A stretch of 47,395 bases of DNA, from positions 1 through 47,395 of IMG/VR virus record IMGVR_UViG_3300043411_000460; one strand, given 5' to 3'. The notes beneath the pieces were generated by a model. The model saw only the letters and a program-made list of their open reading frames with translations. It did no database searches and was not told the DNA's origin. Shown piece by piece: positions 1-41,753 of the stretch. The first letter of the stretch is position 1. Each line of letters starts with the position of its first letter. This DNA comes from a virus. The position numbers and the translations under genes are program-made.

Positions 1-1083
1 CTTCCTCGTGTTCGAGCTAAACAAATAATTGGCATTATAAAAAAGAGTCCCGATACTCTCGCTAAAGAAATATCACAAAGAGGTGGATTTCGTTTTGATG
101 TAGTTCAGAGATGGATTAATGACTCCAGTCGTCATAATCTATCTCGAGCACAAAGACAAGCTGGGGGACTACCCCGGGCACAGTCTGTAACAGATATTAC
201 ATTAGGACATGCAGTAAATGATGCTAATAGAATTATAAGAGACGTGGGATCCACTGCAGCATCCGCGGCAGTATCGCATACTAACACCATTAACAGAGTC
301 ACAGGTAATGAACTAAGAAGAGAAGCTGCTAATTTAGGTAAAGATATTAGTAATAGAATGGGTCTTGCTAAGCCTATTCCTTCGCCTGATTTTAGTGTAA
401 AAAGACAGAAGTTTATTAGGGCTGCACCAACCGACCATCCTCTTCAGAATAGATCTTTTGATCGTCTTCGTTTATCAGCCAAGATCGACGATGCTGCGAA
501 AAGAGTTAATCCAGAATCAGTTGATATAACTCGATTAGCAGAACGAGCAAATCGCCAGTATTCTGGAGGTATTACTAGTGTAAGAAACGAAAGAATAGTA
601 AATGAAGTAACTGGAATAATGAAATACCAGAAGAATGGAGTACACTATTCTACTCAATACGATGGAATCCAAGCAGTAAGACAGCGACCCGGTCTGTTCA
701 AGATTGTCGAAGAGAATGCAGATGAGAGGGCACTCAAGACTAGTTTTAAGAAACTCGAAACCCATTTAAAAAATCTAGATAATTCAACTGATGGACATTC
801 CTATTTAGGTTTAAATTCAAATAGCGGTGCAAAAAAGGCCAGGATAGCACCAATGACTTCTTCACCATCTAGAAATAGGATATATGGATCCGCGGATATA
901 GAAACTAATAATAGTCCAATGGAACTAAATCTCTCAGGACTTTCACGAGGAAGATCCACAAACACTTCATCTATAGATAGGGGTGAACAAATTAACGAAG
1001 TTTTGATGAATAATAAGAAACGCTCATATGCCAGAAGCAGAGATGTAACTACTGATCTTAGAGATCGTGGTCTGCTTTTTTAG
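1..1083 (+). CDS. C-terminal part of a basic Ser/Arg-rich protein, start outside the window
   Basis: The reading frame is open from base 1 to a TAG at 1081-1083, so the first ATG/GTG inside the window need not be the real start; a GTG at 244 is in frame, but coding sequence continues upstream of it. The visible 360 residues are hydrophilic, rich in Arg, Ser and Asn, with no enzyme motif I recognise. The composition resembles the two minus-strand proteins that follow and the giant protein at the right edge, which fits an internal virion or ejection protein, but that is inference. Its last bases overlap by 4 nt the stop of the convergent gene at 1080-2432, and no clear terminator lies between them. 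Confidence 0.7.
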   Translation, partial: LPRVRAKQIIGIIKKSPDTLAKEISQRGGFRFDVVQRWINDSSRHNLSRAQRQAGGLPRAQSVTDITLGHAVNDANRIIRDVGSTAASAAVSHTNTINRVTGNELRREAANLGKDISNRMGLAKPIPSPDFSVKRQKFIRAAPTDHPLQNRSFDRLRLSAKIDDAAKRVNPESVDITRLAERANRQYSGGITSVRNERIVNEVTGIMKYQKNGVHYSTQYDGIQAVRQRPGLFKIVEENADERALKTSFKKLETHLKNLDNSTDGHSYLGLNSNSGAKKARIAPMTSSPSRNRIYGSADIETNNSPMELNLSGLSRGRSTNTSSIDRGEQINEVLMNNKKRSYARSRDVTTDLRDRGLLF

Positions 1084-2432
1084 TGATAAAGAGATGCAGT
1101 AGAATCGAACATGGAGCGGGCATTCATATTAGCATTTGCTATAGCTTCTAGTGCTCTCTGTCTTTCTGTCTGGGCACCAGCATTAATATTTGCCATACCA
1201 TCTCCAAAATCATAATTTAAAGCACTAGTGGCTCGATTAAGTGTATGGTTAAATTGTCTAGTTGCATTTCCAACGAATGGAGCGGCTACTACCCCTAATG
1301 CCAATCCAACAGATGCTACTGCTCCGATCCTTCTGCCCGCCTTCGATGCAAGCCTAGCTACAGAAGATTTTCCACGTCTCATTGATCTAGCTAACAAATC
1401 TGAATCAGGAGATCTTGCTTGTGAGCTAGAAAAAGATAATTCCCTCTGTCTTATTTTATTAACATTAGCTTCTCTTAACCTAGCGCGTCTCTCCCTCTTA
1501 GGACGAGAAGACTCCTTTTGGATGTATTCATATGCTTGTCTTTCGGTTCCAGACGATTGTCTCTTTGCCTTTCTAAACGCAGTTGGATCTATATCAAAAT
1601 CAGATACAGTTCTTCCGGTAGGGGTGAGTGGTGCGTTGGCTCCTAACGAACGACCTTGTTTAATACGTCGGCTTCGTTGGATGGATCCGGAACTAACACG
1701 CTTGCCGCCTACTACTTCCTGAAAATATTCTATTCTTCTTTCTCTAAAGAAATCACGATATCTTCCATTTGAGGCTTTATCTAACCAATCTACTTCTTCT
1801 TTAGAAATACTAACTCGCATCTTCTTTGGCTTACTAGTAGCTCGCGCTTCGGTTGTGGATTGGGTTGGAGTTATGGGTGATATTTTATCGAAACCGCCGG
1901 TTACCTTCTCTCTTAGTTTTGTAGATAAGGAAAGATTGGAATTCCACATGAATTCCCCTGCTTCCATCAGACCAACTGCACCAATTTGTTTTAGTGAGTT
2001 ATATACTATATCTTCACCGGGTGTTCCGTAATCTTCATAACCAAATAGAAGATAACCCAATTGAGCTTTCGCTGCAAGACTACTGCGTTTAGAAGATACC
2101 CTTTGTTTAAACTTTTTCCCAGTCTTTAAACCATCTACAATTTCATTTTTAGATATATTAAAATCGAAGTTCCTCATACTTAACATAGAGCTTGGAACAA
2201 ATGTTTCCTTACTAAAGAAACGTCCAGCTCTCTCTTTCCCATAGAGAGATCTACGTGCTCCATATAGACCGGTCCGTAATACTGCAAGAGTGCCGGCTCT
2301 TTCAACAAGATTTGATTGTTGTTCTTGTTCTATTTGTTCATAGTAATCACCAAGTCCACCCGCGGCATGGCGTCCTGCAAAGAAGAAGTTAAGATTAGAA
2401 ACTTGTCCGCCTGTTCTTTCAAATAGTGACAT
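1080..2432 (-). CDS. Basic protein of unknown function with a C-terminal hydrophobic segment
   Basis: This 450-residue protein is not recognised. It is strongly basic in its second half (many Arg/Lys, Ser-rich stretches around residues 200-365) and has one glycine/alanine/valine-rich hydrophobic segment at about 369-388, shortly before the C-terminus. Its ATG shares one base with the stop of the gene at 2432-3148 (TAATG-type junction), so the two are probably translated as an operon from the divergent promoter region at 3149-3220. Its 3' end overlaps the convergent left-edge gene by 4 nt. A virion-internal or DNA-ejection protein is a reasonable guess from composition and from its place next to packaging genes. 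There is no direct proof. Confidence 0.7.
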   Translation of the reverse strand: MSLFERTGGQVSNLNFFFAGRHAAGGLGDYYEQIEQEQQSNLVERAGTLAVLRTGLYGARRSLYGKERAGRFFSKETFVPSSMLSMRNFDFNISKNEIVDGLKTGKKFKQRVSSKRSSLAAKAQLGYLLFGYEDYGTPGEDIVYNSLKQIGAVGLMEAGEFMWNSNLSLSTKLREKVTGGFDKISPITPTQSTTEARATSKPKKMRVSISKEEVDWLDKASNGRYRDFFRERRIEYFQEVVGGKRVSSGSIQRSRRIKQGRSLGANAPLTPTGRTVSDFDIDPTAFRKAKRQSSGTERQAYEYIQKESSRPKRERRARLREANVNKIRQRELSFSSSQARSPDSDLLARSMRRGKSSVARLASKAGRRIGAVASVGLALGVVAAPFVGNATRQFNHTLNRATSALNYDFGDGMANINAGAQTERQRALEAIANANMNARSMFDSTASLYH

Positions 2433-3148
2433 TAAATTAATCTACTCCGTCTAATAGTTTGAAATCTCATACCTTGTAGAGAAGCAGGACCAAGCATACC
2501 AGAACTATCAGTTCCGTATTTACCAGCACCCATAGATTCCGTATAATACTGTTCACCATATTTAGCAAACTTAGAGAGACCTCTTCCTGCAGCTACACCC
2601 AGGCCGGCTATAACGTAATTCCTTGGATTTGTCAGAGCACTGGAAGCTTTACCCGCAAGTAGAGATTTAACCATCCCTCGTTTGGAAAAGAATTCCTTCT
2701 TAACACTGTTGGCTGCAGTTGAAATGGATTTTCCTTTTCCACCCAGGGAACGTAATTCGTTAGTAATAGAATCAGTTAATTTTGCAGAAACTTGACCTTT
2801 ATTCTGAGATTGCCCATATGCTTGCTTTGCTAGCATCTCTAACTTACGAGTTCTAGTAAAATCACCATGTCTTTGTTGGAGACCGTAAAGGATTCCACTT
2901 GCACCAGAAGCGGTTTTGGTATTAAAAATTGCTTGGAGACCCTTAGCAGCTTGGGTCCGATGTCTACTTGTTGAATGTGCTGTCAATGGTGAAGCTAATC
3001 CTCTCACTATAGGTAAAGCTCTTTGTAAGTTAGAAAGAGGATCATTTGCCATTCTACGAACTTGTCTATACTGATGACCTACATAGTTGACGCCCCCGCG
3101 AAAATAGGATCTAGCTCTATTGACCATCGAATCAGTTCTGTTAGCCAT
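2432..3148 (-). CDS. Small basic protein of unknown function, first gene of the minus-strand pair
   Basis: The 238-residue product is basic and Gln/Arg/Ser-rich, with a short glycine-rich hydrophobic stretch near residues 178-188. I recognise no family. The ATG at 3148 is preceded only by a short A/T-rich leader without a convincing Shine-Dalgarno sequence. A candidate promoter (TATAGG at 3167-3162 on the minus strand) would start transcription only a few bases upstream. The gene is divergent from the terminase and runs into the gene at 1080-2432 with a one-base overlap. Together with that gene it forms the only minus-strand island in the window. Confidence 0.7.
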   Translation of the reverse strand: MANRTDSMVNRARSYFRGGVNYVGHQYRQVRRMANDPLSNLQRALPIVRGLASPLTAHSTSRHRTQAAKGLQAIFNTKTASGASGILYGLQQRHGDFTRTRKLEMLAKQAYGQSQNKGQVSAKLTDSITNELRSLGGKGKSISTAANSVKKEFFSKRGMVKSLLAGKASSALTNPRNYVIAGLGVAAGRGLSKFAKYGEQYYTESMGAGKYGTDSSGMLGPASLQGMRFQTIRRSRLI

Positions 3149-10676: not shown

Positions 10677-11765
10677 ATGGCTACAGGTGATTATCTAGAT
10701 CTTAATGGCACCGCGTTCCAAGAGGAGCAACTCAGGGAACTTAAAGACGGGCGTTATACGTATCTCGACGGACTAGAAACTGTCCTCGAACAAAACTGGA
10801 TGGAGTATGGTGCATATCGTCCACACAGGTTCCTACCTGCACAATATGTAACTCTTCAGGATCAGGAAGGTTATACAATACCACATGGTGCTGTCGTTGC
10901 AGCTGAGAACCTCAGATCTGCCGGGGGTGGCTACAATGCGTCTGCTGGTCTAGGTGGAACTGGGCAATTTGCTCATGCTCTTAACATTTCCAGCAATCCG
11001 ATGTATGCCAGTGCAGATCATCCGATCTATGGTTATGATAGAACTCTCGATGGAGTTATCGTTCCATGCAACGGCTCAACTGCTGCAGTCGATGACTATG
11101 TAACTACAGCTGACGTCACTATTGAACGTTTACTGTCAAGTGGTGCAACTGCCGCTTCTGGCGACATTAACGTAACTGTAGCTCTACAAAGAGCCGCATC
11201 CCAGACTCCTATCGGTGTTGTCTCGGGTCAAATCATGAGAGAGACCGCTGGCTCAAACATGACTTATCGTCTGAATACTTATGCATACTCAGTATGTCGT
11301 AAGGGTGTTCTGCATATTCCTTATGTTCTTAAGGATGCTGCTAGAATCAACACTCCAAACGGTGCTCCTGGTGGAGACGCTGGTTATCGTGCTGTTGTAG
11401 GAAAGCATCAGTTTATGCTCATCGATGACATGAGCCTAATGAAATCCGAAGCTACTCCTAGAGTAGATGGATACGGTAAACTGATCCTTACTGCATCTGG
11501 AACTTACCCAACTAAGTTTGGTCGTATCATTAGCTGGACTAATAAGGTCAATACTGATCTGTTAGCAAAAGTAGATGGTATGCCTGGCTTCCAGTTCCCT
11601 GGAGTTAATACCGGTGGTCTGACTAGACGTCTCTTTGACTTCATCTATCAGATCCGTAAAGCTCGCAGTGTGGGCGTTACAATCAATGAGATCGTAGCTG
11701 ATGTAAACAATGGTGCATACGGTATGGTTAAAGTGCTGTTTGATACCTGTGCGGTAATCAGCTAA
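10677..11765 (+). CDS. Probable capsid decoration or second head protein
   Basis: The 362-residue product lies between the protease/scaffold and the major capsid gene, where head decoration (cement) or minor capsid proteins are usually encoded. It has a good Shine-Dalgarno sequence (AGAGG, 10667-10671) and the C-ending, high-expression codon use shared with the capsid gene, so it is probably abundant. The sequence is rich in Gly, Ala, Thr and Tyr with beta-strand-like segments and no membrane segment. It is longer than lambda gpD-type cement proteins. I do not recognise the fold. The alternative is a second capsid shell protein. Confidence 0.6.
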   Translation: MATGDYLDLNGTAFQEEQLRELKDGRYTYLDGLETVLEQNWMEYGAYRPHRFLPAQYVTLQDQEGYTIPHGAVVAAENLRSAGGGYNASAGLGGTGQFAHALNISSNPMYASADHPIYGYDRTLDGVIVPCNGSTAAVDDYVTTADVTIERLLSSGATAASGDINVTVALQRAASQTPIGVVSGQIMRETAGSNMTYRLNTYAYSVCRKGVLHIPYVLKDAARINTPNGAPGGDAGYRAVVGKHQFMLIDDMSLMKSEATPRVDGYGKLILTASGTYPTKFGRIISWTNKVNTDLLAKVDGMPGFQFPGVNTGGLTRRLFDFIYQIRKARSVGVTINEIVADVNNGAYGMVKVLFDTCAVIS

Positions 11766-11796
11766 GGAATAAAGAGGAATAAGGAGTAACTAAGAA

Positions 11797-13302
11797 ATGC
11801 TAGATTCCATCAGTAAAATTTTCGGTACCGATGCTTATCGTAGAGAATCGGTTAAATACGATGCTGCAGGTAATCTATCCGCGGGAGAGAGACTCCTCTC
11901 CCGTAAGGTAGATGGTAGCAAGTCGTGGGCAGACAAAGTAGGCGAAGCAGTCGAACCGGCTGATAAAGACAAAGTTCTTTATGAGATGGCAAGTGCTGAT
12001 GCGCAGGCTTCTAGTTTCCTCTACGATCTTATGACTGGTAGCGTTCCTTCGAACGTAAAGGTTCCTAAGATCGAAGAAATGATGAATGACTTCTTGTCTC
12101 ATCGTGACTTCCCATTCATCTGGGATCCAGCGATTGAGCTTGTAATGAAGAATTACATCATGCCTCAGATCCTCGTTTCCTCTGAGATCTTCCGTACGAT
12201 TCCTTATACTGGTCAGAAAAGCCAGGTTAACATCCGTACGATCGGTCCTATTGAGATCGAAGAAGTCGGTGATGGAGAAACCTATCCGGAAGTAGGTTCT
12301 TCTATCATGGATAAAGCGTATCGTATCGCTCTAGACATCAAGAAATATGGTGTTAAGCTTGGTATGACTCGCGAACTCCGTGAATCTGACAACTGGGGAG
12401 TTCTTGGATTCCTTCTGACTCAGATTGCAGATGGCTTTGTAATCCACAAAGAATATGCATGTATGAACCTCTTGAACAAGATGGGCGTAACCATCTTCAA
12501 TAACGCCGCCCCATCCACTGGTATTGAAAAGCGTATCACTGAAGGCCGCGGTATTGATGGTAACCCCAATGGAACCATGTCTCTCAATGACCTTATGGCA
12601 ATGTGGGCTTATGGTAACTCTATGGGATTCAACTATAGCGTTCTTCTGATGCATCCATTTGCATGGCAAATGTTTGCTACTAACCCAGAACTGCGTGAGG
12701 TAGTTATCCAGGGTTCTAACGTACAGAGCGCACTGAATAGCTCAAGACGCCAAGGAGCTGCTGCTCCTGGAGTTACTGGACCATTTGGTGAAATGTGGGG
12801 ACAAAAGATGTCTGGCCTTGGTGGTCAGTCAGCTAATGGCTACTACTCTCCTAACAATGCTCTGGATCCAGTCTATGGTAAGCTCGGAATCTCTCCTGCT
12901 TCTACAAGTCTGACTCCTTGGGGAGCTACGTTCAATATCCCTCCAGGTAACTTCTGGCCAGGTGGACTGAGAGTAATCGTTACTCCTTATATTCCTTGGG
13001 CACAAGATTCTTCTTCGAAGAAATACATCACAAACCTGTATTTCATCGATCCAGAAAGAACTGGTGTAATCCTCCAGGGAGAGGGTCCTACAACTGAAGA
13101 ATGGGAAGATGTAGAAAGAGAAATCCAATACATCAAGTTCAAGTCTCGTTGGGGCCTGGCTCCTGTGTATCAGGGACGTGGTGTGGCTGTTGCTAGAAAC
13201 ATCGTAATCGATCGCAGCTATGTGTTTGAGAACACTAATAGCGTATCGCTCAGTGCGATTACTGCAGCAAGCACTGTCGGTGGAGTTTCCTGGCCATCCT
13301 AA
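11797..13302 (+). CDS. Major capsid protein
   Basis: This 501-residue protein is the best candidate for the HK97-fold shell subunit. It follows the protease and decoration genes, has a strong Shine-Dalgarno AAGGAG (11781-11786) and biased codon use, and is followed directly by a strong intrinsic terminator, all signs of very high expression. The N-terminal ~110 residues are charged and helical and could be a delta-type region removed by the neighbouring protease. The core contains paired strands with Gly/Pro turns and 'FIWDPAIELVMKNYIMPQIL' near residues 106-125, which reads like the long spine-helix entry of capsid proteins. The cleavage site is not predictable by eye. Confidence 0.85.
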   Translation: MLDSISKIFGTDAYRRESVKYDAAGNLSAGERLLSRKVDGSKSWADKVGEAVEPADKDKVLYEMASADAQASSFLYDLMTGSVPSNVKVPKIEEMMNDFLSHRDFPFIWDPAIELVMKNYIMPQILVSSEIFRTIPYTGQKSQVNIRTIGPIEIEEVGDGETYPEVGSSIMDKAYRIALDIKKYGVKLGMTRELRESDNWGVLGFLLTQIADGFVIHKEYACMNLLNKMGVTIFNNAAPSTGIEKRITEGRGIDGNPNGTMSLNDLMAMWAYGNSMGFNYSVLLMHPFAWQMFATNPELREVVIQGSNVQSALNSSRRQGAAAPGVTGPFGEMWGQKMSGLGGQSANGYYSPNNALDPVYGKLGISPASTSLTPWGATFNIPPGNFWPGGLRVIVTPYIPWAQDSSSKKYITNLYFIDPERTGVILQGEGPTTEEWEDVEREIQYIKFKSRWGLAPVYQGRGVAVARNIVIDRSYVFENTNSVSLSAITAASTVGGVSWPS

Positions 13303-13323
13303 TCCAGGTTAACATCCAAAACG

Positions 13324-13355
13324 AAAAGCCCTCCAGAAATGGGGGGCTTTTTTTT
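13324..13355 (+). terminator. Intrinsic terminator after the major capsid gene
   Basis: An 11-bp stem (13324-13334 with 13341-13351, one U-G pair, CCC/GGG core) encloses the loop AGAAAT and runs into a T tract at 13348-13355. It lies 21 bp after the capsid stop codon and directly before the next promoter. Confidence 0.92.
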
Positions 13356-13358
13356 ACC

Positions 13359-13395
13359 TTGACACAGAACTAACAAAAACACTATTAACTAACAT
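13359..13395 (+). promoter_or_regulatory. Promoter of the neck/tail operon, nearly leaderless
   Basis: TTGACA at 13359-13364 and TATTAA at 13383-13388 are separated by 18 bp, right after the capsid terminator. Initiation about seven bases downstream would fall at or next to the ATG at 13396, and no Shine-Dalgarno sequence is present. The TTGACA...TAACTAA layout repeats that in front of the terminase. Confidence 0.6.
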
Positions 13396-14082
13396 ATGCC
13401 AAAAATCAAAATCAATCTTAATGAATCAACGGGACCTCTTTTTGAAGGCGGAGGTATCCGTCTCAGTTCCCTTGATGAACCACCCATCAAAGACATTGAA
13501 CATGAAATTACCACACCCGCGGCAGCTACTGAATTACTGAATGGTGTTAAACATGGAAGGATTCAGATTAGCAAGGAAGATGTAGCAAAGCTAGTAGAGC
13601 TTACATCAGACGGTAATAGAGCAGAGGCTGTAAAAGAGAAGGGTAAAATCAAACCCGGGGAGAGAGTGCTTCGTCTTGCAGACCGGGAAGTTATCTGGCA
13701 GACGAATAGTGGTTCTGTCCTGTTAAATCGTTTAGCGGGTATAGTTGCTGTAGCGGTAGATCCTACTAAAGTTACTGCTATCGATAATAAAGATATCCAG
13801 AACGGTCTTAGAAGTGGCAAAATTACTGTTGATGAAGAAACTAAATCAAAAGATATCGAAGTCGAAACTGGCTTTGATTTAGATAAAGCTTCTCAGTCGT
13901 CGCCAACAATACGAGAGAAATTTCTTAAGTTCATCCTGACTACTGATATTTCTGAATTTAGAAATATGATCAAAGGCTTTAAGCGAGTTGATCTTGTATC
14001 TATGAAGAAATTAGAAGAAGCAAGCGAAAATAGAAAGGAGTACATAGCTATCATAGTAGATATCCTACAAACAGCAGAGTAA
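13396..14082 (+). CDS. Hypothetical protein, first gene of the neck/tail operon
   Basis: The 228-residue product is not recognised. The N-terminal half is Lys/Glu-rich with a short hydrophobic strand (LNRLAGIVAVAV, about 111-122); the C-terminal half (from ~160) is helical with 'REKFLKFILTTDISEFRNMI' (174-193). Position between capsid and connector genes suggests a head-completion protein or an assembly chaperone. The start is placed at ATG 13396 because the reading frame has no alternative nearby and the promoter ends there. The last codons form the left arm of the 14066-14094 hairpin. Confidence 0.65.
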   Translation: MPKIKINLNESTGPLFEGGGIRLSSLDEPPIKDIEHEITTPAAATELLNGVKHGRIQISKEDVAKLVELTSDGNRAEAVKEKGKIKPGERVLRLADREVIWQTNSGSVLLNRLAGIVAVAVDPTKVTAIDNKDIQNGLRSGKITVDEETKSKDIEVETGFDLDKASQSSPTIREKFLKFILTTDISEFRNMIKGFKRVDLVSMKKLEEASENRKEYIAIIVDILQTAE

Positions 14083-19259: not shown

Positions 19260-20135
19260 ATGGCTCTTGGTTCAATTTTTACTAAGACATACACCACTTA
19301 TAGTGGTGTTGATATTACAGCGATTTTCGATAACATCTCGCTGGCAACACTTACAGGTATTGCCATCTCGGTGACTCGAGAAAAGGCACCTGTATATACC
19401 TTTGGATCTGCCAATCCACGATCTATCTCTAGAGGTAAGCGTGGAACTGCGGGCTCGATGATGTTCACATTGTTTGATCGTGATGCATTCTATGGTCTCT
19501 TCCTTAGTGAAGAACATAAGTATTATGCTCACGCTGATGAGATTAACTGGCTTACAAACCCAATTAATGCATCTATGGCAATAGGACTATACTATCAGGC
19601 ATTTGATAATGCCAACGGAGCAGTTCCTACTGGTGGTGAGCTTACTGGTTTAGGTCGCCAAGCTGATTCTACATTTGCTGTAGATCAGAGTGCAGTGGAT
19701 CCACTGACTGGTCAACCTATTGCGGGAGTTCAGCCACAAGGTGGTAATCCTCTTGCATTGCAAGCTGGTCAATCTAGTGGTGGTGGCTTTGTAGGAGCTA
19801 GAACTACTCGTAGATCTGCGATGTATGCTGACCAGGTAATGCCATTTGACATTACCCTCATTGCTCAGAATGAATACGGTCATGCCTCTGCCGCGGGGGT
19901 TGTTGGTGTTGAGATCATCAACGAAGGTGGTGGTATCTCTATGGATGATATTACCAACGAACAACAGATGACATACATTGCCATCTATAGACTTCCATGG
20001 TATTCGTTAAATAACGGACAACAAAAAGAGTCTATCTATGGTGGAGTAACTAGCCTTATTGAATCTGAAAGAGTTGGTAACACTATTGTTACCCAAACTA
20101 ATGGCAATAATGCAAGTGTTCTTGGTCAACCTTAA
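19260..20135 (+). CDS. Tail tube protein
   Basis: This 291-residue protein follows the sheath with a strong Shine-Dalgarno (AAGGAG). It has the conserved tube-type opening: 'SGVDITAIFDN', then 'TGIAISVTREKAPVYTFGSA' (34-53), a Ser-Arg-Gly-Lys-Arg-Gly turn and a FTLFDRDAF segment. Such proteins stack as hexameric rings inside the sheath and conduct DNA. An insertion of about 50 residues (about 130-180, Gly/Gln-rich) separates the two halves of the fold. The gene is closed by a strong terminator, consistent with high expression. Confidence 0.88.
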   Translation: MALGSIFTKTYTTYSGVDITAIFDNISLATLTGIAISVTREKAPVYTFGSANPRSISRGKRGTAGSMMFTLFDRDAFYGLFLSEEHKYYAHADEINWLTNPINASMAIGLYYQAFDNANGAVPTGGELTGLGRQADSTFAVDQSAVDPLTGQPIAGVQPQGGNPLALQAGQSSGGGFVGARTTRRSAMYADQVMPFDITLIAQNEYGHASAAGVVGVEIINEGGGISMDDITNEQQMTYIAIYRLPWYSLNNGQQKESIYGGVTSLIESERVGNTIVTQTNGNNASVLGQP

Positions 20136-20895: not shown

Positions 20896-21285
20896 ATGTG
20901 GGTACGTCTTTGGTCACAGAATTCTCCGAATAATAATAGCGGTTATCCTGCAATCATAAGTAATATTAAATTTAAAGATTCACAATATCTGACAGAAGAA
21001 GAGTTATGCGACATTTATAGTACTCTTGGTTTTCCTAAAGAAGGCGAAGCGATTACTAAAGTACACGTTTTCAGTAAGAATACCATCATGTGTATAGCCA
21101 CATACAGCTGGTATGTAAATCATTACTCGCACTCTAATCCAATCGAAAAGCATACATATATTTATTCCGGAACACATTTTCTTTATACCGCAATCGAAAA
21201 GTATAACGAACGAGGAGTAGTCGTCAAGGAACACCTTGTAAGACACTGTACCTATGAGCCTTTCAAAAGAAAAATTGCTAGCTGA
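20896..21285 (+). CDS. Hypothetical 129-residue protein
   Basis: A Trp/Tyr/His-rich soluble protein with no recognised domain. The GAGGG sequence seven bases upstream supports ATG 20896. Its last 32 bases overlap the metallophosphatase gene in another frame, so the two are probably translated together. Small proteins of this kind next to phosphoesterases may be partners, but there is no direct sign. Confidence 0.6.
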   Translation: MWVRLWSQNSPNNNSGYPAIISNIKFKDSQYLTEEELCDIYSTLGFPKEGEAITKVHVFSKNTIMCIATYSWYVNHYSHSNPIEKHTYIYSGTHFLYTAIEKYNERGVVVKEHLVRHCTYEPFKRKIAS

Positions 21286-22837
21286 TATAAAGAAGATAGA
21301 TAAGAAATTTCAAACAGATACTAAATCAAAACGCGGAACAGTTACACGAGACTTCTATCGAAAAAATTCTAAACACGGTGAAAACTATACTAAGTACTGG
21401 GGGTCATTTAAGACTTTTCGTAAAGAAGCATTCGGTGACATTACCGAACAACGTTTCAATCGGGAGGCGATTCAGAGAGCGATAAAGACGCCAGTTTCCA
21501 AGCAGAAGCGTTATATCCTGACTGCGGCCGTACTTGGTCAATCTCTGAATCGTCCTTCCTTTGAATCTGTTCTCAATTACCATAACCAACGTGATGCAGA
21601 ATTAGTAATTCTTCCAACAGTTGGAAACAACAAAGAAGATGTCGAATACGCTGAAGAATTAAAAGATTATATTCCTCATTTCGCAGAAGAGTATACGTTC
21701 AATGAACGAATTAAAGCTCTTGATCTCTTAATTAAACCACAACAGATTAATCCATTAACGGGGATACCAAGACTTGGACATAAACATAGTTCAATAGTAG
21801 TAGCGAGTCCCAAACAGCAAATGGTGGTAGTCCCCACTACTGGAACTTCTCACCCACACATGCTCCACTCCACTGGAGTTATTACTAATCCAGACACGTA
21901 TAGGTATAGTCGTCAAGGTGTGTTAGCGAGACAAGATCATGTTATTGGTGGATTGATTATTGAAACAGATGGACCTAAGATGTTTCATCTACGACAATTT
22001 CAAATGGATAAAGATGGATCCTTCTGTGATTTGGGATTCATATATAAACGCGATAAGATAGAACCAATAACAGCTACTGCATTTGTTCTTGGTGATTATC
22101 ATGCAGGATGGCATGTTGAAACTGTAGTAAAGTCGTGGATGGAAATCTGTAAAATTATCAAACCTAAATATGTTTTAATTCATGACCTATTTGATGGATG
22201 TTCTATATCTCATCACCACCAACATGATATTAAGGCACAAATTAAAAGACCAGCTCATCTCTCTACGATAGAGAGAGAACTTCAAACAGTTGGTCAAGAA
22301 CTCATAAGATGGCATAAAGCATTTCCTGATGTACAATTAGTTGTCGTTCGTTCGAATCATGATGAGCATCTAGATCGCTATCTCAAGGAAGGTAGATATG
22401 TAGATGATAGAATGAATCATCGTCTAGCTTTAGATCTAGCGTGTTATTATCTAGATGGATATAATCCAATAGAAGTATGGCTATCTAAAAACATGGGAAT
22501 TAATTGGGTTAAATGGCTCAAGCGAAATGATAGCTTCAAACAACATGGAATAGAATTGGGTTGCCATGGCGATAAAGGTAACAATGGAACTCGTGGATCA
22601 GCTCAAAGTGCAGAAATAAGTTTTGGAAAAAGTATTAGAGGACACGAACATACACCGGGGATCCTAAGAGAAACTATGACAGTTGGAACTACTGCCGATT
22701 TACATCCGGACTTTACTATGGGTTCCCCTTCCTCGTGGCTCAACACCAGTGCCATACTGTATCCCACTGGCCAAAGAACTCTAATAACCTGTATCCACGG
22801 AAGAACAGCCTTAGAAGTACCACCCGGGACAGCTTAA
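21254..22837 (+). CDS. Calcineurin-type metallophosphoesterase with N-terminal DNA-binding-like repeat
   Basis: The C-terminal half (about 272-515) carries the binuclear-metal motif set of calcineurin-like phosphoesterases: GDYH (Asp281, His283), HDLFDG (Asp311/Asp314), RSNHDEH (Asn368-His369-Asp370), CHGD (His438) and RGHEH (His464, His466). The first ~60 residues look like a homing-endonuclease-associated/HTH-type repeat: Lys/Arg-rich, with YTKYWGSFKTFRKEAF near 45-60. Hence a DNA- or RNA-directed nuclease or phosphodiesterase is more likely than a protein phosphatase. I recall a metallophosphoesterase of similar size among T5 first-step-transfer proteins (A1), which is linked to host-DNA breakdown; this needs a search. 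It lies just before the partner-switching cassette. Confidence 0.8.
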   Translation: MSLSKEKLLADIKKIDKKFQTDTKSKRGTVTRDFYRKNSKHGENYTKYWGSFKTFRKEAFGDITEQRFNREAIQRAIKTPVSKQKRYILTAAVLGQSLNRPSFESVLNYHNQRDAELVILPTVGNNKEDVEYAEELKDYIPHFAEEYTFNERIKALDLLIKPQQINPLTGIPRLGHKHSSIVVASPKQQMVVVPTTGTSHPHMLHSTGVITNPDTYRYSRQGVLARQDHVIGGLIIETDGPKMFHLRQFQMDKDGSFCDLGFIYKRDKIEPITATAFVLGDYHAGWHVETVVKSWMEICKIIKPKYVLIHDLFDGCSISHHHQHDIKAQIKRPAHLSTIERELQTVGQELIRWHKAFPDVQLVVVRSNHDEHLDRYLKEGRYVDDRMNHRLALDLACYYLDGYNPIEVWLSKNMGINWVKWLKRNDSFKQHGIELGCHGDKGNNGTRGSAQSAEISFGKSIRGHEHTPGILRETMTVGTTADLHPDFTMGSPSSWLNTSAILYPTGQRTLITCIHGRTALEVPPGTA

Positions 22838-22851
22838 TAGAATAACTGGCA

Positions 22852-23373
22852 ATGCTTCTCGATCAAATACTTAAAGCAGCCGGCCCCATTGGGATTACCG
22901 TTCTCGGTGGAATATTGATCGTGGTTCTAGGATGGGTCCTCTATAAATTGGGAGCCAAACGAGGAATCAAGTTTCCTTGGACTGATAAATATTTAGTCCC
23001 TCCTCCAAAAGAAGAATTAGCAGATACTAAAGCTGAACCAGAAGCAGAAATCATAGTCCCTGACTATGAAGTTCTGGTAGGTAGTGTTCGCGTTGGATAC
23101 TACGTTCCTCGTCCATATGTTTACCTCTATGGTAAAGAATGGAATACTGAATCACATAGAAGTGGTTACAAGGAACTAGATCGTCTCTGGGTAATCGACC
23201 AAGTTCCTTCGATTTACTTAATAGATACTAACATAACTTCAACACTAGTATCCCTGCTCGATAGTAAGGTCAAACAGACCAAAAAAGATATTACTATATT
23301 CTGTTCATCAGAACAAGAAAAGCTCCTATCCCACTTCAAGCAGTATCAACATGTTAAGTTTGAAATCAGATGA
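22852..23373 (+). CDS. Membrane-anchored STAS-like protein (partner-switching scaffold candidate)
   Basis: One N-terminal membrane segment (about 12-33, Gly/Ile/Val-rich) is followed by basic residues, a Pro/Glu-rich linker (49-70) and a ~100-residue domain. That domain has the STAS order of secondary structure: strand (YVYLYGK, 89-95), hydrophobic strand SIYLID (120-125), a Ser/Thr at the start of a helix (TSTLVSLLDSKV, 129-140), strand DITIFCSS (146-153), helix EQEKLLSHFKQY, and a last strand. In RsbS/SpoIIAA-type anti-anti-sigma factors the phosphorylated Ser/Thr sits just there; Ser130, Thr131 or Thr129 are the candidates here. Sequence similarity is low, and the call gains most support from the two overlapping genes that follow. 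A plain membrane protein of unknown role remains possible. Confidence 0.55.
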   Translation: MLLDQILKAAGPIGITVLGGILIVVLGWVLYKLGAKRGIKFPWTDKYLVPPPKEELADTKAEPEAEIIVPDYEVLVGSVRVGYYVPRPYVYLYGKEWNTESHRSGYKELDRLWVIDQVPSIYLIDTNITSTLVSLLDSKVKQTKKDITIFCSSEQEKLLSHFKQYQHVKFEIR

Positions 23374-23761
23374 TTCAGTAACATTCTCGATCGAAAATGA
23401 GGATGACTTAGTTGATCTTCAGAAGACCTTGCTGCAAGACAAACAACCTGCAGACAAGGTCTTCGTTGCTACTGAGATGGCCTCTAATATACTTCGTGCC
23501 CATGAAAAGGGTACAATTACAGTTAATGGTGTTTATGTAGAGACTAAATTAAAAACAAACCACTTCAAAGAAATTGTACATTACATCGAAAAAGCCAAAG
23601 AGATTAAGGAGAAACAACTCCCACAAACACTTAAAGGCGAACCATTACGTGGAATGGGATTCATTACAATGTTTGGTGCTGGTTGGAATCTTAAGGTAGA
23701 GAAGTTGGGTAAGTATGTCAGAATCATCGCCTCTCTCGAAGCAAATCCAAGAACTGTATAA
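23351..23761 (+). CDS. RsbT/SpoIIAB-like GHKL (HATPase) protein, possibly degenerate kinase
   Basis: This 136-residue protein has the size of anti-sigma/switch kinases of the RsbT-RsbW-SpoIIAB group. Residues 40-58 (ATEMASNIL...EKGTITV) line up with the N box of RsbT-type kinases (SELARNI...GKGQI), keeping the catalytic Glu (Glu42) and Mg-binding Asn (Asn46). Residues 98-109 (PLRGMGFITMFG) resemble the glycine-rich lid/G2 region. The usual DxGxG (G1) box is not visible and is replaced by a charged helix (about 67-90), so ATP binding may be altered or lost. The gene overlaps its upstream neighbour by 23 and its downstream neighbour by 47 bases. It is expected to phosphorylate, or at least bind, the STAS-like neighbour. 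Confidence 0.68.
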   Translation: MLSLKSDDSVTFSIENEDDLVDLQKTLLQDKQPADKVFVATEMASNILRAHEKGTITVNGVYVETKLKTNHFKEIVHYIEKAKEIKEKQLPQTLKGEPLRGMGFITMFGAGWNLKVEKLGKYVRIIASLEANPRTV

Positions 23762-24965
23762 AGAACATCAAAGAAAAAGTTTACTATTCTCCTTTCATCT
23801 AAGATTAGTTACCGCAGCAGTCTTCGCAATAGCTATAGCATCATTGCTTGTTTTAACGAAAGCAACTATATTTCAGGTGATACCGGCTATGGTAATAGTT
23901 GGCTTCTATATAGTTGTAGTTCATTTTGCTAAATATGCAGTAGAGCATCAGTTGGATCGAGATTGGCATGGTTACCTTCAGATATCATTAGATATCATAC
24001 TACTTACATTTTATATAGGTTTTGGTAGTCCGTTCGGGCCACATCTGATATATGTCGGTTCATTGAAGGATGTATACTTTATAATCATAGCCGTCGCGGC
24101 TTGCCAGGGCGACTACAGGTATACGCTGTTTGCCACTGTTGGATCCATCATAATGTTCACTATTGTATCAATGTCGTTCTATACCTCTGCAGATATTGCA
24201 ACTCTCTATCAGTTAACTCCAGCAAAGAATATATTAGGTTATGATGATATTATAAAATATCTTATATATCTAGGAATTGCCGGCTATGTAATAGGTCATA
24301 AAGTTCATTTGGTTAATAACGTAGAATCTAGACTACGTGATGCTTCTATTAAAATGATTATATCGGGAACATATGGTGACTTAAATAAACCCAATGGACA
24401 GATTGATTTAGGCAACTATAGTGTATTCTCTGACACGAAACCTGCGGAGGGTAGTTTCGTGGGTGCTGATTTTGTTTCTTATAAGGAAACAGAAGAAGGG
24501 ATATCTGTAATGATTGGAGATGTGATATCCCACGGCATAAACGTGAGCCAGGGTGCAACTGTGGCTTTGGGGGTATACCACGGACTGGAGACTGGTAATC
24601 CTTCTAAGATACTAAAAGCCATTAATCGTTCATTATGTGAAGTAGATCTATATCATGGTGGAGAAGCATTTGTAATGGCCTTCCTCCTGAAACCAGATGG
24701 AAAAGTCATTTACAATGGTGAGCTGGATCGCATAACTGTTGTTAGAAATAATGGTTCACTTGAGTTTCCCAATACCGTTGGCCCTATCCTTGGTAAGGAT
24801 AAGGATATCGATATGTTACCCAATCGTTATTTCAAACTGTTGCCCGGGGAAGGGTTTACAGTAGTAACTGATGGTATAACTAATCAAGATCCTCACGATG
24901 ATAGGACTATGCTGATAATTAGTTATATTCCCCAACCTAAAAGATCGAGGAATCATGAAACGTAA
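23715..24965 (+). CDS. Membrane-anchored SpoIIE/RsbU-type PP2C phosphatase
   Basis: The N-terminal ~200 residues hold about six hydrophobic segments (roughly 30-48, 52-70, 88-102, 117-131, 137-155, 180-195). A linker helix leads to a SpoIIE-type PP2C domain (about 228-405). Metal-binding and signature residues are in place: GAD (Asp252), IGDVISHG (Asp269, His273), VVTDGITN (Asp386) and DDRT (Asp395/Asp396). Such enzymes dephosphorylate the Ser/Thr of STAS-domain partners and are driven by sensory N-termini, here a membrane sensor or anchor. Both neighbours upstream look like the other two members of a partner-switching set. The start at 23715 overlaps the HATPase gene by 47 bases, and the end overlaps the transglycosylase by 11. 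A SpoIIE phosphatase inside a phage virion/lysis operon is unexpected. Confidence 0.88.
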   Translation: MSESSPLSKQIQELYKEHQRKSLLFSFHLRLVTAAVFAIAIASLLVLTKATIFQVIPAMVIVGFYIVVVHFAKYAVEHQLDRDWHGYLQISLDIILLTFYIGFGSPFGPHLIYVGSLKDVYFIIIAVAACQGDYRYTLFATVGSIIMFTIVSMSFYTSADIATLYQLTPAKNILGYDDIIKYLIYLGIAGYVIGHKVHLVNNVESRLRDASIKMIISGTYGDLNKPNGQIDLGNYSVFSDTKPAEGSFVGADFVSYKETEEGISVMIGDVISHGINVSQGATVALGVYHGLETGNPSKILKAINRSLCEVDLYHGGEAFVMAFLLKPDGKVIYNGELDRITVVRNNGSLEFPNTVGPILGKDKDIDMLPNRYFKLLPGEGFTVVTDGITNQDPHDDRTMLIISYIPQPKRSRNHET

Positions 24966-25503
24966 ATTATCGATATTTCTATTTCTACTCCTATCTATTA
25001 GTTATTCTCAACTAGTCAATGCGTGCCTTCTTCAAGAAAGAAGATATGAATCAGTAAGAGATAATATAGATTATAGATACTTTAGTGAACTCCTTAAAGT
25101 ATACCCATGGCTCGATCGTAATCTATATGATATCATCAGGATATACTCAGCGGAGCATGGTGTGGATCACCTACTGGTGTTAGCTGTAATTCAAGCCGAA
25201 TCGAACGGATACATACTTGCTACAGGCAAACCTGTAACTTACAACAAGAATGGAGAAAAGGTCACATACCGAGCCCGTGGTTATATGCAAGTCATGCCAT
25301 TTCATGTCAACTACCCCGCGGATCTACTTTATATACCACATAATAATATAGATAAAGGTACATATATCTTAGCTAATAGTCTTAGATTATCTAAAGGTAA
25401 TCTATATACAGCCCTGAAGAATTATAATAGCGGACCAGCGTCTGCATACTATGATTGGGATTATATCAGGAAAATTGTAACATATTATCAACGAACGAGG
25501 TAA
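24955..25503 (+). CDS. Lytic transglycosylase, probable lipoprotein
   Basis: The 182-residue product starts with a Lys/Arg-rich n-region, a hydrophobic core and VNAC (Cys24), a fair lipobox, so it is probably exported and lipid-anchored. The rest is an SLT-type lysozyme-like domain: catalytic Glu82 in VIQAESNG, GYMQVMP at 109-115 and NYNSGP at 156-161. Enzymes of this family cut the MurNAc-GlcNAc bond of peptidoglycan with formation of the 1,6-anhydro product. Residues 88-107 form a short insertion between the Glu motif and the GxMQ motif. GAGG before the ATG gives a good ribosome-binding site. The gene overlaps the phosphatase, so the cassette probably regulates or accompanies murein cleavage. 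A virion-borne role is less likely because of the signal peptide. Confidence 0.88.
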   Translation: MKRKLSIFLFLLLSISYSQLVNACLLQERRYESVRDNIDYRYFSELLKVYPWLDRNLYDIIRIYSAEHGVDHLLVLAVIQAESNGYILATGKPVTYNKNGEKVTYRARGYMQVMPFHVNYPADLLYIPHNNIDKGTYILANSLRLSKGNLYTALKNYNSGPASAYYDWDYIRKIVTYYQRTR

Positions 25504-25505
25504 GC

Positions 25506-26189
25506 ATGAATACTAGAAAACTAAAATCAAAATTACAATCATTTGTTTACCGAAAGTTTGGTAATCCTAAAGCTGAATTAGATGTAAATAAAGGTCTATT
25601 TGGTTGGTTAGTTGCAGCTCGAGAATTTGAAGCTCTCGTAAGTGGTCCCCAGGATATGCTTATTTGTGGTGACTCAATCATGCACGCTGGTGAAGGTTAT
25701 TTCGAATCTAATATCAGTCATTGTATGGATACTGCCATATCTGGTCAGACTACAAAAACTCTTCTCGGGTGTTTCCGTAGAATCATCCTACCATATCGTC
25801 CTAAACGTCTATTCCTCCATGTATCTGGAAATGATACTCTTCAAAATCAAAAACTAAACGATACACTAATGAATTTATTAACAGTAATTCACGTATGTAG
25901 AAGTGAGGGAGTTAAAGAAATATACTGGGCAGAGATATTACCTCTGGGTAAACCAAGATTCGAAAACAAAGAATTCTCTAAACTTAATAATGAGATTATT
26001 CCTGAATATAATCAAATGGTTAAGAATTCTAAATGTGTGGATGTGATTTCTACTAGATCAACAGAAGCTCTATCAGGACCTGATGGTTGGATCAAACCGG
26101 AATACAATTCAGGAGATAATATCCATAATAGTCCTCTAGCATATGAACGATTCTGGTTACCTACCATCAAGACTGTATTCGGTGTTTAG
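25506..26189 (+). CDS. SGNH/GDSL-type hydrolase
   Basis: From ATG 25506 (two bases after the transglycosylase stop) the protein has 227 residues with the four SGNH blocks: GDSI with nucleophile Ser57, Gly80 in ISGQTT, Asn109 in HVSGND, and the Asp204-x2-His207 pair in GDNIHNS. These hydrolases remove acyl groups from sugars or lipids. Next to a lytic transglycosylase, de-O-acetylation of peptidoglycan or of a surface polysaccharide is the simplest idea. No signal peptide or membrane segment is visible, so action on the envelope would need release by a holin or a virion location. A longer frame starting at a TTG at 25455 overlaps the upstream coding sequence and is less likely. Confidence 0.85.
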   Translation: MNTRKLKSKLQSFVYRKFGNPKAELDVNKGLFGWLVAAREFEALVSGPQDMLICGDSIMHAGEGYFESNISHCMDTAISGQTTKTLLGCFRRIILPYRPKRLFLHVSGNDTLQNQKLNDTLMNLLTVIHVCRSEGVKEIYWAEILPLGKPRFENKEFSKLNNEIIPEYNQMVKNSKCVDVISTRSTEALSGPDGWIKPEYNSGDNIHNSPLAYERFWLPTIKTVFGV

Positions 26190-37935: not shown

Positions 37936-38271
37936 ATGGAATCTTCCAGACGTTCCACAAAGACTAGTTCTGACGCTCGAAAAAAGCGCGACATTTCTAG
38001 AAAGCTATTTATATCTTCTTGGTTCTTGGGTGCATTAGTTCTCCTCCTTGACTTGTTCAAGAAAGATGTAGCTGTAGATGGAACCCTGATACCTACAGTA
38101 TCAGGACCTGCATATGATTTTCTTGTATACTTTATAGGTATCTTTACCGCTAACTACTCTGTAAGGCGTGGTACGGATGCTTATACTCAAATTAAAGGAG
38201 TATTTTCAAATAATGATACTCTTCCCGAAACAACATTACCAGACGACTTCACTAATCAGCGAGGACGCTAA
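37936..38271 (+). CDS. Second small membrane protein, holin/antiholin or pinholin-type candidate
   Basis: The frame is open from a TTG at 37879, but a hairpin occupies 37908-37929, so ATG 37936 (111 residues) is the most plausible start; ATG 37918 is an alternative. A strongly basic N-terminus (1-23) is followed by a hydrophobic segment (24-41), a short charged loop, a second hydrophobic segment (about 60-74) and a polar C-terminus. Placed directly after a holin candidate, it may be an antiholin or a second lysis membrane protein. It ends in a one-base overlap with the next gene. Confidence 0.6.
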   Translation: MESSRRSTKTSSDARKKRDISRKLFISSWFLGALVLLLDLFKKDVAVDGTLIPTVSGPAYDFLVYFIGIFTANYSVRRGTDAYTQIKGVFSNNDTLPETTLPDDFTNQRGR

Positions 38272-41200
38272 TGCCTGATTCTGGGATCCAGGGACAAGAA
38301 GGCCCACAAACAAGTCTTACCTTTGATGAAGAACTAACTAATCAATATTCTTCATATACTACTAACTATTTTACGGGTAGTCAGTGTAGTTTGTTCTTGG
38401 GCCCAGTATGGGTCGAAGATTTCATTGCAATTAAATATCGTCTTATAAATAGTAAGGCTCCGATATATGGATGGAATGAACTTTATCCAGATGCAGTTAT
38501 AGATGGAAACTTCCTTATACAAGGAACACTTACTGTTCATTATCGTGAATCTGATTATATATTTCGTCTTATTGATCAGATCAAACAACAACTCGAGTCT
38601 ACTTCTAATCAAGAAGATATTGATAGAGTTATAGAAAACCAGAAAGGTAAATTTAGAACCAGGATAGAACAAAGACTTCTCGAACAGAATCTAGATCCAG
38701 CTACTGTGGCTCAGTTAGTAGAACAGGCATCCGACCGCGTTAATATAATTGTAAACGAGTTAAGTAATCAGAATGAGAACACATTTAATTTTGATCTTAC
38801 AGTAGTAACTGGCAACTATCGTTCTAAAGCCAGCGACTCAGCAATCAAGATCTTTGAGAAATTCAACATTACCTCAGAGAGTAGCGCAGTAGAGCCCGAT
38901 GATTCCCCGCTTACTACGACATATGAGTTCTTTGCTTTTAAGAGTAGATCGAGACGTAGAAATGTTGGTCAACCAGTTGTAGCGGACCTCCCGGGTATAG
39001 ATATAGAGAGAATGCTGGAAGAAATCACCAGTAAGATGGCAGATGGTTTCCAATTTGAAAACAAGAAGTCCCTCCTCCAGCTTGCTACTGAAAACTCAAC
39101 ACAAGGTAGAAAGCTTACTGTTTTTGATATAGCAGCTAGTGAAGATTATTCTAAAAAACGTAGAAGGGGACTTCTTGATATTCCTCATATTACATTTAAA
39201 AATGCCACACTCGATTCTAATGCAGATACTGAAATAACGAGTAGTATAACTCAATCAGACGAATGGGGGTATGGTGGTCTTGTCCTTGTCGGTACTAATA
39301 ATTATGGACTTAAAGCAAGTATAAATAAATTAGAAGTCTCATTTGAATGCCCGGAGAAATTTATAGTAGAACAACCAGTCTATGAATTTGGAACTGAGAA
39401 TGCAACAGTTCTTGTAAATGATCAGCGTACATCTGTAGGAATCCAGCGCGCTTCGACTGATTCTTCGAAGCCTATTCTTGATGGTAGTGGTCCTGTAACT
39501 ATGCCGGTAGTTATGAATAACCACTCTGGACAGATACAGCATATAGATCACGAAATCATGAGAAATGAAGGTTTCGATTTCGTCGGAGAAATAATTCCGA
39601 GTCCACCTATTATTAGAGGCTCAGGTATACCAGTAAGAAGAATATACCCACTCACTACAGATACATACAGTTTCGAAAATAGAAGTGGATTCACTAACTC
39701 TTTTCTTTCACTCACAGAACCTATTACTGTATTAAAAAATATAGTCAATCCTTATGGTGAAACTAAGGGCCCACTCGAAAATCGTAGATATATTAGCGAA
39801 GTAGTGCAACAGCCAACATTTGCTATGAATTACTTTGACATATTTAGTTTTTGCAAAGTTGAAGGTAGTAAAATTAAATATGTGCGACCAGTTCCAATTT
39901 ACTTTATGGATCGTCTTTTAAAATCGAATACTCTTCAAGACTTTAGAAGAACTGGAAATCTAGAAGGAGAAGGACTAACTGATGAAGTTAAAGCTAATCT
40001 TACTGGAGAAGATGGGGTAGATGGAATATTCGTTCCAGTATATGGTAAATACTATTCTAGTTCAGAGATTAGTAATATCATAGATTTTGGAGAAGATTTC
40101 TATTATGATGATATTCCATACGTAGAACTTAAAACTAGAATGGAGGCTCTTTATCCTAACAATGTTCTAGAAACAGAAGAAATGCAATTTGTTGAAAAGA
40201 GTTTTCATCTAATTCCAGTTGTATTCAATATCAAGTCCTATGAGATGATAATAAATGGAACTTCAGAAGAAGCTTCAACAGAAGCACTACTTGCCACTAA
40301 ATGGCAACAACAACTTCTTTCTAAGGAACCTTTAACTAAACTTCTAGAAAAGGAACAATCATCAGATATTACCAAGGTCTATCGCACTGCGTATAGTTTA
40401 CATTATGATTATCTTCTTAAAAATACCTCTGGACTTAATCCAGCTGGAGCTACTCCGAATATTGATTTTAGTTTTATAAACAAACTTGATATCAATGAGG
40501 AGGCATTATTTTCTAAAGATGATTTCCTCTTAGTTCAGGTTTATGCTGTAATTACAAAGAGTGTCAACTTTCAAAATTCTGCAGCACTGCTTGAAGACAT
40601 TTTAACAAGTAGAAATATTAAATATAGCTTTATTAACTCTCGTGGATTTTCTTCTAAGATAGAAATAACATCCAATGATGCGGCCAGACAAATGATCGAA
40701 CAGGCCAATATACAAGATGCGATTCCTCCTGTTGAAGTTCATCAACGATACGAAACTGCTAGATTGGTCGTATTTGAAAATTATATACGTTCAGATTATA
40801 AGAATTATATAATCATGGATTCATTCTGGGATACATTCTTAAACTTCATTACACCGAAACGACTCTTGAGTTTTCTACAAGAGTTCAGTACTATGCGTGT
40901 TATCTTCGAATTCCTGGGCCTTGGAAGTTTTGATGGAGCGACAAATATTTTAACTTATCAGAGAGAAATGGCTACATATGTGAATGAGCGTTTAGATCTA
41001 GATAATGATGAAATAGGTAAGATGTTTGGAAGTGCCATAAAGGAATGGGTTGGTTACTTCAAGAGTATCATCGCATTAGGCATAGAAGCAGTAAGTATAT
41101 TCACAAATCTCTTTGAAGATTCAAATGCAGATGATGGACAGAAAATATCTGCATTATATAATCCAACTATCAAATCTATTACAGAAGAAGAAAAGGTTAA

Positions 41201-41753
41201 GACTGAACTTCTATACAACTGTGTAGGATTTGCTGCACAGTCGTATGTAAACGTAAATCTTAGAGTTGTAGCTGAGGAAATTTGGAAATACTTTGATAAA
41301 GATGCATACGCTGCTTCTATTCAAGGTGAACAAAAGCTAAGACATCTTAATTTAAAGAATGTTCAATTTAATGAGATTAAAGTAATACCTACCAATAGTA
41401 ATGCTACGGCTACGATTCTAGAAAGGATATCTAAATCAAGAGCATTGATTTATCCAAATAAAGAACAATTCATCGAACGAGTAGTAGGTCTTCTTAAGAA
41501 GAAGATATTAGATTATAATAATACAGATGGTAGTAAAACTACTATTATAACCAAACGTTTTCGTGCAGATGAGGATAGGAGAGCAGAGACAAAAAGTCCC
41601 CTATTCGAAGATCCATATCGTAAGGATATGTTATATATCAGACATCAGATAGCATATCCGTCGAATACTGCTGTTGTGACCTATGGAAAAAACACACCTC
41701 CTGACAAAATTGCGCTTGGCAATTACGAATGGATGGCTGATATAACCCTATAA
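38271..41753 (+). CDS. Large virion/tail structural protein with tube-like N-terminal domain
   Basis: The 1160-residue product opens with a domain (about 38-105) whose pattern 'LFLGPVWVEDFIAIKYRL ... PIYGWNELYPDAV ... QGTLTVHY' recalls a domain found in many phage tail-tube-related or baseplate virion proteins. The rest is Ser/Thr/Glu-rich and alpha/beta, without membrane spans. Its place just before the chaperone-like pair and tape-measure-like gene fits a tail or baseplate component. The assignment is by resemblance and order, and the middle ~800 residues are unassigned. Confidence 0.6.
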   Translation: MPDSGIQGQEGPQTSLTFDEELTNQYSSYTTNYFTGSQCSLFLGPVWVEDFIAIKYRLINSKAPIYGWNELYPDAVIDGNFLIQGTLTVHYRESDYIFRLIDQIKQQLESTSNQEDIDRVIENQKGKFRTRIEQRLLEQNLDPATVAQLVEQASDRVNIIVNELSNQNENTFNFDLTVVTGNYRSKASDSAIKIFEKFNITSESSAVEPDDSPLTTTYEFFAFKSRSRRRNVGQPVVADLPGIDIERMLEEITSKMADGFQFENKKSLLQLATENSTQGRKLTVFDIAASEDYSKKRRRGLLDIPHITFKNATLDSNADTEITSSITQSDEWGYGGLVLVGTNNYGLKASINKLEVSFECPEKFIVEQPVYEFGTENATVLVNDQRTSVGIQRASTDSSKPILDGSGPVTMPVVMNNHSGQIQHIDHEIMRNEGFDFVGEIIPSPPIIRGSGIPVRRIYPLTTDTYSFENRSGFTNSFLSLTEPITVLKNIVNPYGETKGPLENRRYISEVVQQPTFAMNYFDIFSFCKVEGSKIKYVRPVPIYFMDRLLKSNTLQDFRRTGNLEGEGLTDEVKANLTGEDGVDGIFVPVYGKYYSSSEISNIIDFGEDFYYDDIPYVELKTRMEALYPNNVLETEEMQFVEKSFHLIPVVFNIKSYEMIINGTSEEASTEALLATKWQQQLLSKEPLTKLLEKEQSSDITKVYRTAYSLHYDYLLKNTSGLNPAGATPNIDFSFINKLDINEEALFSKDDFLLVQVYAVITKSVNFQNSAALLEDILTSRNIKYSFINSRGFSSKIEITSNDAARQMIEQANIQDAIPPVEVHQRYETARLVVFENYIRSDYKNYIIMDSFWDTFLNFITPKRLLSFLQEFSTMRVIFEFLGLGSFDGATNILTYQREMATYVNERLDLDNDEIGKMFGSAIKEWVGYFKSIIALGIEAVSIFTNLFEDSNADDGQKISALYNPTIKSITEEEKVKTELLYNCVGFAAQSYVNVNLRVVAEEIWKYFDKDAYAASIQGEQKLRHLNLKNVQFNEIKVIPTNSNATATILERISKSRALIYPNKEQFIERVVGLLKKKILDYNNTDGSKTTIITKRFRADEDRRAETKSPLFEDPYRKDMLYIRHQIAYPSNTAVVTYGKNTPPDKIALGNYEWMADITL

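Follow-up and report, generated by a model that had tools for sequence, protein, structure and literature searches.

The window (the whole viral record analysed, 47,395 bases, classified as a fragment) carries three consecutive genes on the plus strand, hereafter P1 (22852..23373), P2 (23351..23761), and P3 (23715..24965), which encode proteins of 173, 136, and 416 aa and together occupy ~2.1 kb. The three overlapping ORFs were located at exactly the coordinates given in the initial annotation. P1 and P2 overlap by 23 bases, P2 and P3 by 47 bases, and P3 overlaps by 11 bases with the gene of an SLT-type lytic transglycosylase (hereafter, SLT; 24955..25503, plus strand), which is exported via a signal peptide or anchor (PF01464, 8e-12). 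The trio is placed between the tail tube gene (19260..20135, plus strand) and further tail genes, adjoining this transglycosylase.

PHROG matches to a terminase, a portal, a major head protein, a tail sheath, and a baseplate revealed the gene content of a large myovirus. Similar terminase, portal, head, and tail tube genes occur in Moorella phage MTATph1, in Bacillus phage KLEB27-3, and in Acinetobacter phage ME3, whose annotation refers in turn to Bacillus phage 0305phi8-36. Among the window genes matching these three phages the tail tube gene is the best conserved, with at most 56% identity (over 80 residues) to that of KLEB27-3. Elsewhere in the window, the first 200 residues of a 1160-aa protein (38271-41753) match phrog_9206, as does the tail tube protein, which suggests a second tube-like domain fused onto a long protein. 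Two long ORFs (450 and 238 aa) at 1080-3148 on the minus strand have the opposite orientation to the late genes, and neither had a Pfam or PHROG match.

Relatives were sought in viral contigs using the tail tube protein as an anchor, which identified 461 related stretches, the best 80 of which were kept. Within these 80 the two nearest relatives, judged by tail tube identity, are L009 (81%) and L010 (72%). In L009, the counterparts of P1 (10929-11483), P2 (11455-11910), P3 (11858-13126), and SLT (13089-13700) directly follow the tail tube gene in the identical order and overlap as well, as identified by tblastn (2e-14, 3e-7, 4e-51, and 1e-27, respectively). The corresponding protein identities are 34%, 23%, 30%, and 45%. 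Given that all four ORFs are conserved in L009 with their order and overlaps kept, they are true genes and not chance ORFs, and the refuting outcome named in the initial annotation, a triplet never kept together in related phages, did not occur. The L009 P3 still matches the SpoIIE family and the four genes stay together next to a tail tube protein of 81% identity, which indicates that the module is fast-evolving yet behaves as one unit.

At the position of the trio, L010 instead encodes an unrelated 332-aa protein (10923-11921) without any family match above cut-off, which suggests that the module is a removable cassette. In the window, the tail tube gene and the trio are separated by a gene for a T5 A1-like DNA transfer protein (21254-22837; PHROG 1745, 1.4e-91), whose closest relatives are in the jumbo phages OC, XacN1, and RAS14. 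This gene has no counterpart there in L009 and L010, and is accordingly interpreted as a separate inserted cassette. In two further related stretches, a second, larger tail-tube-like protein directly follows the first (L012, 11059-12501; L013, 10820-12190).

The triplet is rare: it is known from two phages and is missing from the next closest relative, L010. In the records behind the best 80 of the 461 loci, many of which are fragments, SpoIIE was detected in the L009 contig only, plus one sub-threshold piece. In viral contigs, four alignment scans using patterns of P3 and P1 retrieved the L009 contig alone in every case, scans of viral contigs with the single P2 and P3 proteins returned nothing, and no genome contigs were detected with the phosphatase core. 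The P3 proteins of the window and L009 had no tblastn match in 50,697 phage records. Isolated SpoIIAB-like genes in "phage" records were left out, as these records are mostly unannotated faecal fragments and may be bacterial.

The clearest family assignment is that of P3, a SpoIIE-type PP2C phosphatase with an N-terminal membrane part, based on PF07228, hydropathy, and the L009 homologue. PF07228 matched residues 261-396 (24495..24902, plus strand) at 5e-8 and 33.6 bits, above the curated cut-off of 25, and the L009 P3 at 5e-9 and 36.7 bits. The metal-binding Asp motifs are GDV.SHG (D269), TDG (D386), and DDRT (D395/D396), with GAD (D252) just upstream of the domain match. All four motifs (GAD, GDV.SHG, TDG, and DD.T) are invariant between the window and L009, so the complete set of signature Asp residues reported in the initial annotation is confirmed. 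The six membrane spans assigned at the same time are not, as hydropathy gives three strong spans only (two in the L009 P3). In RsbU-type phosphatases, switching depends on dimerisation of the phosphatase domains by a linker (PMC12143880), and the part of P3 from its last hydrophobic segment to GAD is long enough for a candidate RsbU-like linker. Judged from its sequence, P3 is a membrane-anchored SpoIIE/PP2C phosphatase with predicted activity on a STAS protein.

No family match was obtained for P2 in Pfam, NCBIfam, PHROGs, or PADLOC, and the HATPase_c_2 profile (PF13581), which had been anticipated for this protein, was absent in a two-record profile search with E up to 10. Sub-threshold family hits of P1 and P2 (LAG1-DNAbind, TRI4_N, and similar) were dismissed, being under the cut-off and making no sense. 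The fold of P2 is more informative. A confident AlphaFold2 model from a two-sequence alignment (pLDDT 82.5) has the order strand, helix, N-box helix, two strands, helix, disordered lid, helix, and two strands, i.e., the GHKL topology that the structural check had been expected to reveal. A PDB search with this model ranked SpoIIAB first (1til; E 6e-4, probability 1.00), followed by SpoIIAB again, UsfX, and RsbW. SiaB of Pseudomonas aeruginosa (6kko) was lower by E-value, yet had the top TM-score (0.53) among the matches listed. The TM-scores of P2 to GHKL proteins are about 0.5, and those of the P1 and P2 model matches range from about 0.4 to 0.58, with each model built from two sequences. In the viral library the best match was a phage histidine kinase, also a GHKL protein. 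Several de novo designed proteins fit the P2 model nearly as well, and thus the fold match alone is no proof.

The motifs of P2 point in the same direction, though incompletely. An N-box-like EMASN (E42 and N46; 23474..23488, plus strand) corresponds to ELVEN in L009, with the Glu and Asn invariant and at positions equivalent to E46/N50 in SpoIIAB and E61/N65 in SiaB. A G2-like box, RGMGF (23648..23662, plus strand), has its GxGF conserved in L009. The GMGF motif is found in SpoIIAB as well, 57 residues after the N-box Asn, compared with 55 in P2. The DxGxG motif (G1 box) is missing from P2 of both the window and L009; an Asp near this place is present in the L009 protein and not in that of the window, and is therefore not conserved. 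In sequence comparisons, hhalign of P2 with SpoIIAB/RsbW was not significant (probability 3%), and our own profile-profile alignment with shuffles gave Z = 2.8, with 2/150 shuffles equally good. The yardstick sequences of B. subtilis SpoIIAB and P. aeruginosa SiaC were taken from or checked against PDB chains. Taken together, the model strongly suggests a GHKL fold for P2. The initial description as RsbT/SpoIIAB-like holds for the predicted fold and the N-box Glu/Asn, but not for an intact set of kinase motifs. We also considered P2 as a broken gene and dropped this idea, as L009 shares the missing G1 box while the remainder is conserved.

Since the DxGxG box is missing, the kinase activity of P2 is putative. 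SiaB, a proven kinase with E61 as predicted catalytic residue (PMC7647112), likewise has no DxGxG, so its absence from P2 is compatible with activity. A fairly unlikely alternative is that P2 is a pseudokinase, i.e., a GHKL fold that makes no use of ATP and acts by binding like RsbT, with P2 and P3 forming the switch and P1 serving as their membrane dock or as the substrate of a host kinase. The absence of DxGxG from both phages without a conserved Asp would fit this, as would the activation of RsbU by RsbT through linker binding (PMC12143880) and the extent of the P2-P3 overlap, which exceeds that of any other pair (47 bases in the window and 53 in L009). The invariant N-box Glu and Asn, which are needed for catalysis, argue against it, as does SiaB as an active kinase without DxGxG.

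P1 was confirmed as a one-span membrane protein, with a single span near the N-terminus (at about residues 13-31) in the hydropathy scan. Its C-terminal part was modelled with AlphaFold2 (residues 68-173) from the two available sequences, with a middling pLDDT of 67.7 and the order strand-helix-strand-helix-strand-helix-helix-strand. The best PDB match of this model was SpoIIAA (probability 0.94, E 0.046, TM 0.55), with SiaC, a STAS domain, and similar proteins ranking next, and STAS/SiaC proteins accounted for about half of the first 23 PDB matches. Searches of Pfam, NCBIfam, PHROGs, and PADLOC gave no convincing family match for P1, and the predicted match to the STAS profile PF13466 was not obtained. 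The STAS-like domain proposed in the initial annotation is therefore a tentative fold prediction, weaker than that of P2, and not a family assignment; the model moderately supports a STAS fold.

A comparison of P1 with its 34% identical L009 counterpart showed that the longest invariant runs are LDRLW, NITS, and LVSLL. The latter two lie in NITSTLVSLL (23230..23259, plus strand), whose N, I, T, and S are invariant and which marks the start of helix 2, as helix 63-75 of the model begins at S130. The phosphorylation site of SiaC, T68, is located in NTSS in the N-terminal part of helix 2 (PMC7647112, PMC8457831). The invariant T129 and S130 of P1 thus lie at the position of the STAS phospho-site, although the DSSG motif itself is absent. 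We predict that T129 or S130 is the phospho-acceptor, in the place of the phosphorylated Ser/Thr of SpoIIAA and SiaC.

Partner switching in bacteria controls sigma factors, stressosomes, and diguanylate cyclases. In the window, each of three adjacent genes resembles, independently of the others, a different component of one such system, i.e., P3 by PF07228, P2 by its likeness to SpoIIAB, RsbW, UsfX, and SiaB, and P1 by its likeness to SpoIIAA, SiaC, and STAS. Several observations count against a partner switch: P1 and P2 are without a sequence-level family, their models derive from two sequences with TM-scores of about 0.4 to 0.58, the P1 model is of middling confidence, and designed proteins fit P2 nearly as well. 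In addition, DxGxG is missing, with no Asp near its place in the P2 of the window, the scans of the window revealed no sigma factor, diguanylate cyclase, or other target, and L010 has no module at this place. Membership of the Rsb type, as first proposed, was not supported by the profile searches, which assigned neither P1 nor P2 to a family. Given the GHKL fold of P2, the weaker STAS-like fold of P1, and the triplet in L009, a partner-switching set of scaffold, kinase, and phosphatase stays the best reading, albeit one without the intact kinase motif set that had been supposed. That the phosphatase, kinase, and switch-protein folds of three co-conserved neighbors are best read as a partner switch is, in our view, quite probable.

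The placement among tail genes and next to an exported transglycosylase could also point to a lysis or structural cassette without phospho-signalling, in which P1, small and with one span, would be holin-like or a virion protein, P2 a virion protein or chaperone sharing the fold, and P3 the only enzyme. This would require that three partner-type folds in three consecutive genes are a coincidence, and it sits poorly with the invariant NITS and N-box residues; we consider it very unlikely.

Under the partner-switch reading, P3 would respond to a membrane or dimerisation signal and strip phosphate off Thr129/Ser130 at the start of helix 2 in the STAS-like domain of P1. P2 would bind unphosphorylated P1 and probably (re)phosphorylate the same residues, and P1, tethered to the inner membrane, would hold P2 or another partner depending on its phosphorylation state. 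Such a phospho-cycle on P1 is marginally probable. The output would most likely be an envelope step of late infection and not a sigma factor. SLT, the fourth gene of the cassette conserved in L009, is the only gene travelling with the trio, and neither a sigma factor nor a diguanylate cyclase nor any other target was recognised in this genome fragment, which was scanned with PHROGs and, for part of its ORFs, with Pfam; an envelope or lysis step is our tentative first guess on these grounds. The gene after SLT in the window encodes a GDSL-hydrolase-like protein (25455-26189), and the corresponding place is occupied in L009 (13703-14347) by a C39-like peptidase (PF13529) and in L010 (12034-12690) by a protein that resembles it in sequence.

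A further possibility is that the module mimics or titrates a partner switch of the host (a stressosome, SiaABC, or an anti-sigma system) against a stress or dormancy response, in which case P3 would remove phosphate from a host STAS protein while P2 or P1 served as a decoy. Phages are known to act on the host sigma-factor control of dormancy (PMC9429907), and an auxiliary spoIIE gene has been reported for viruses (PMC8940887). However, the phage encodes proteins for all three roles and keeps them together, a set that a simple decoy does not need, the proteins are far diverged from cellular ones, and a position among late structural genes would be late for a takeover. This explanation is quite unlikely.

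We therefore return to P1-P2-P3 as a divergent viral partner-switching module at the membrane, with a P3-P1-P2 phospho-cycle and an envelope output, an explanation that as a whole we hold to be somewhat probable. A stronger version, in which a membrane-bound viral switch whose GHKL kinase represents a new family senses the envelope through reversible Ser/Thr phosphorylation of a phage STAS-like protein and gates a late step (e.g., release or activation of the transglycosylase and, through it, lysis timing), is unlikely. If the partner-switch reading is true, viruses run their own Ser/Thr phospho-switch, as a complete, diverged, and co-conserved set in the late region of a phage. It would offer a compact model, with all parts encoded within about 2.1 kb, and would make phage lysis or envelope control accessible to a biochemical mechanism rarely considered there. 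The families of P1 and P2 are new to the profile libraries searched.

Among known systems, RbaV/RbaW/RbaY is a host partner switch that controls the gene transfer agent RcGTA (PMC3999984). Like the trio, it has no sigma factor gene beside it, and its output is phage-like particles; unlike the trio, it is host-encoded outside the particle gene cluster and has clear STAS, HATPase, and REC-PP2C domains. In viruses, lone components are known, i.e., single spoIIE genes reported in marine viruses as an auxiliary gene (PMC8940887) and the SpoIIAB-like PHROG 12354, as opposed to the three-part set described here.

SiaA/SiaB/SiaC(/SiaD) of Pseudomonas aeruginosa (PMC7647112, PMC8457831) shares with the trio a membrane SpoIIE phosphatase, adjacent genes, and the lack of a sigma factor. 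SiaB resembles P2 in its GHKL fold, its EMxxN box, and the missing DxGxG, and SiaC resembles P1 as a small STAS-like protein with NTSS (phosphorylated) at the start of helix 2, compared with NITS in P1. Both SiaB and SiaC were among the PDB fold matches. The trio differs in that P1 has its own membrane span, the gene order is C-B-A, and no diguanylate cyclase was seen in the scans of this genome fragment. The SiaB (PF19788, DUF6272) and SiaC (PF09345) profiles had no match in P2 and P1, respectively, and profile-profile alignments of P2 with SiaB and of P1 with SiaC were no better than shuffles, so we do not assign the trio to the Sia family.

RsbV/RsbW/RsbU-X and SpoIIAA/SpoIIAB/SpoIIE of Bacillus have the same three folds with identical roles, the best single PDB matches were SpoIIAB for P2 and SpoIIAA for P1, and the GMGF G2 motif is as in SpoIIAB. 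In contrast to these systems, P2 is without DxGxG, P1 is membrane-anchored with NITS and not DSSG, and the trio is phage-encoded in a window without a sigma factor gene. The trio would work like SpoIIA/Rsb and in its details like SiaABC, and by sequence it belongs to neither. No complete viral three-part set was described in the literature searched (open-licence papers), and we conclude that the trio is a new, virus-encoded variant of a known switch type.
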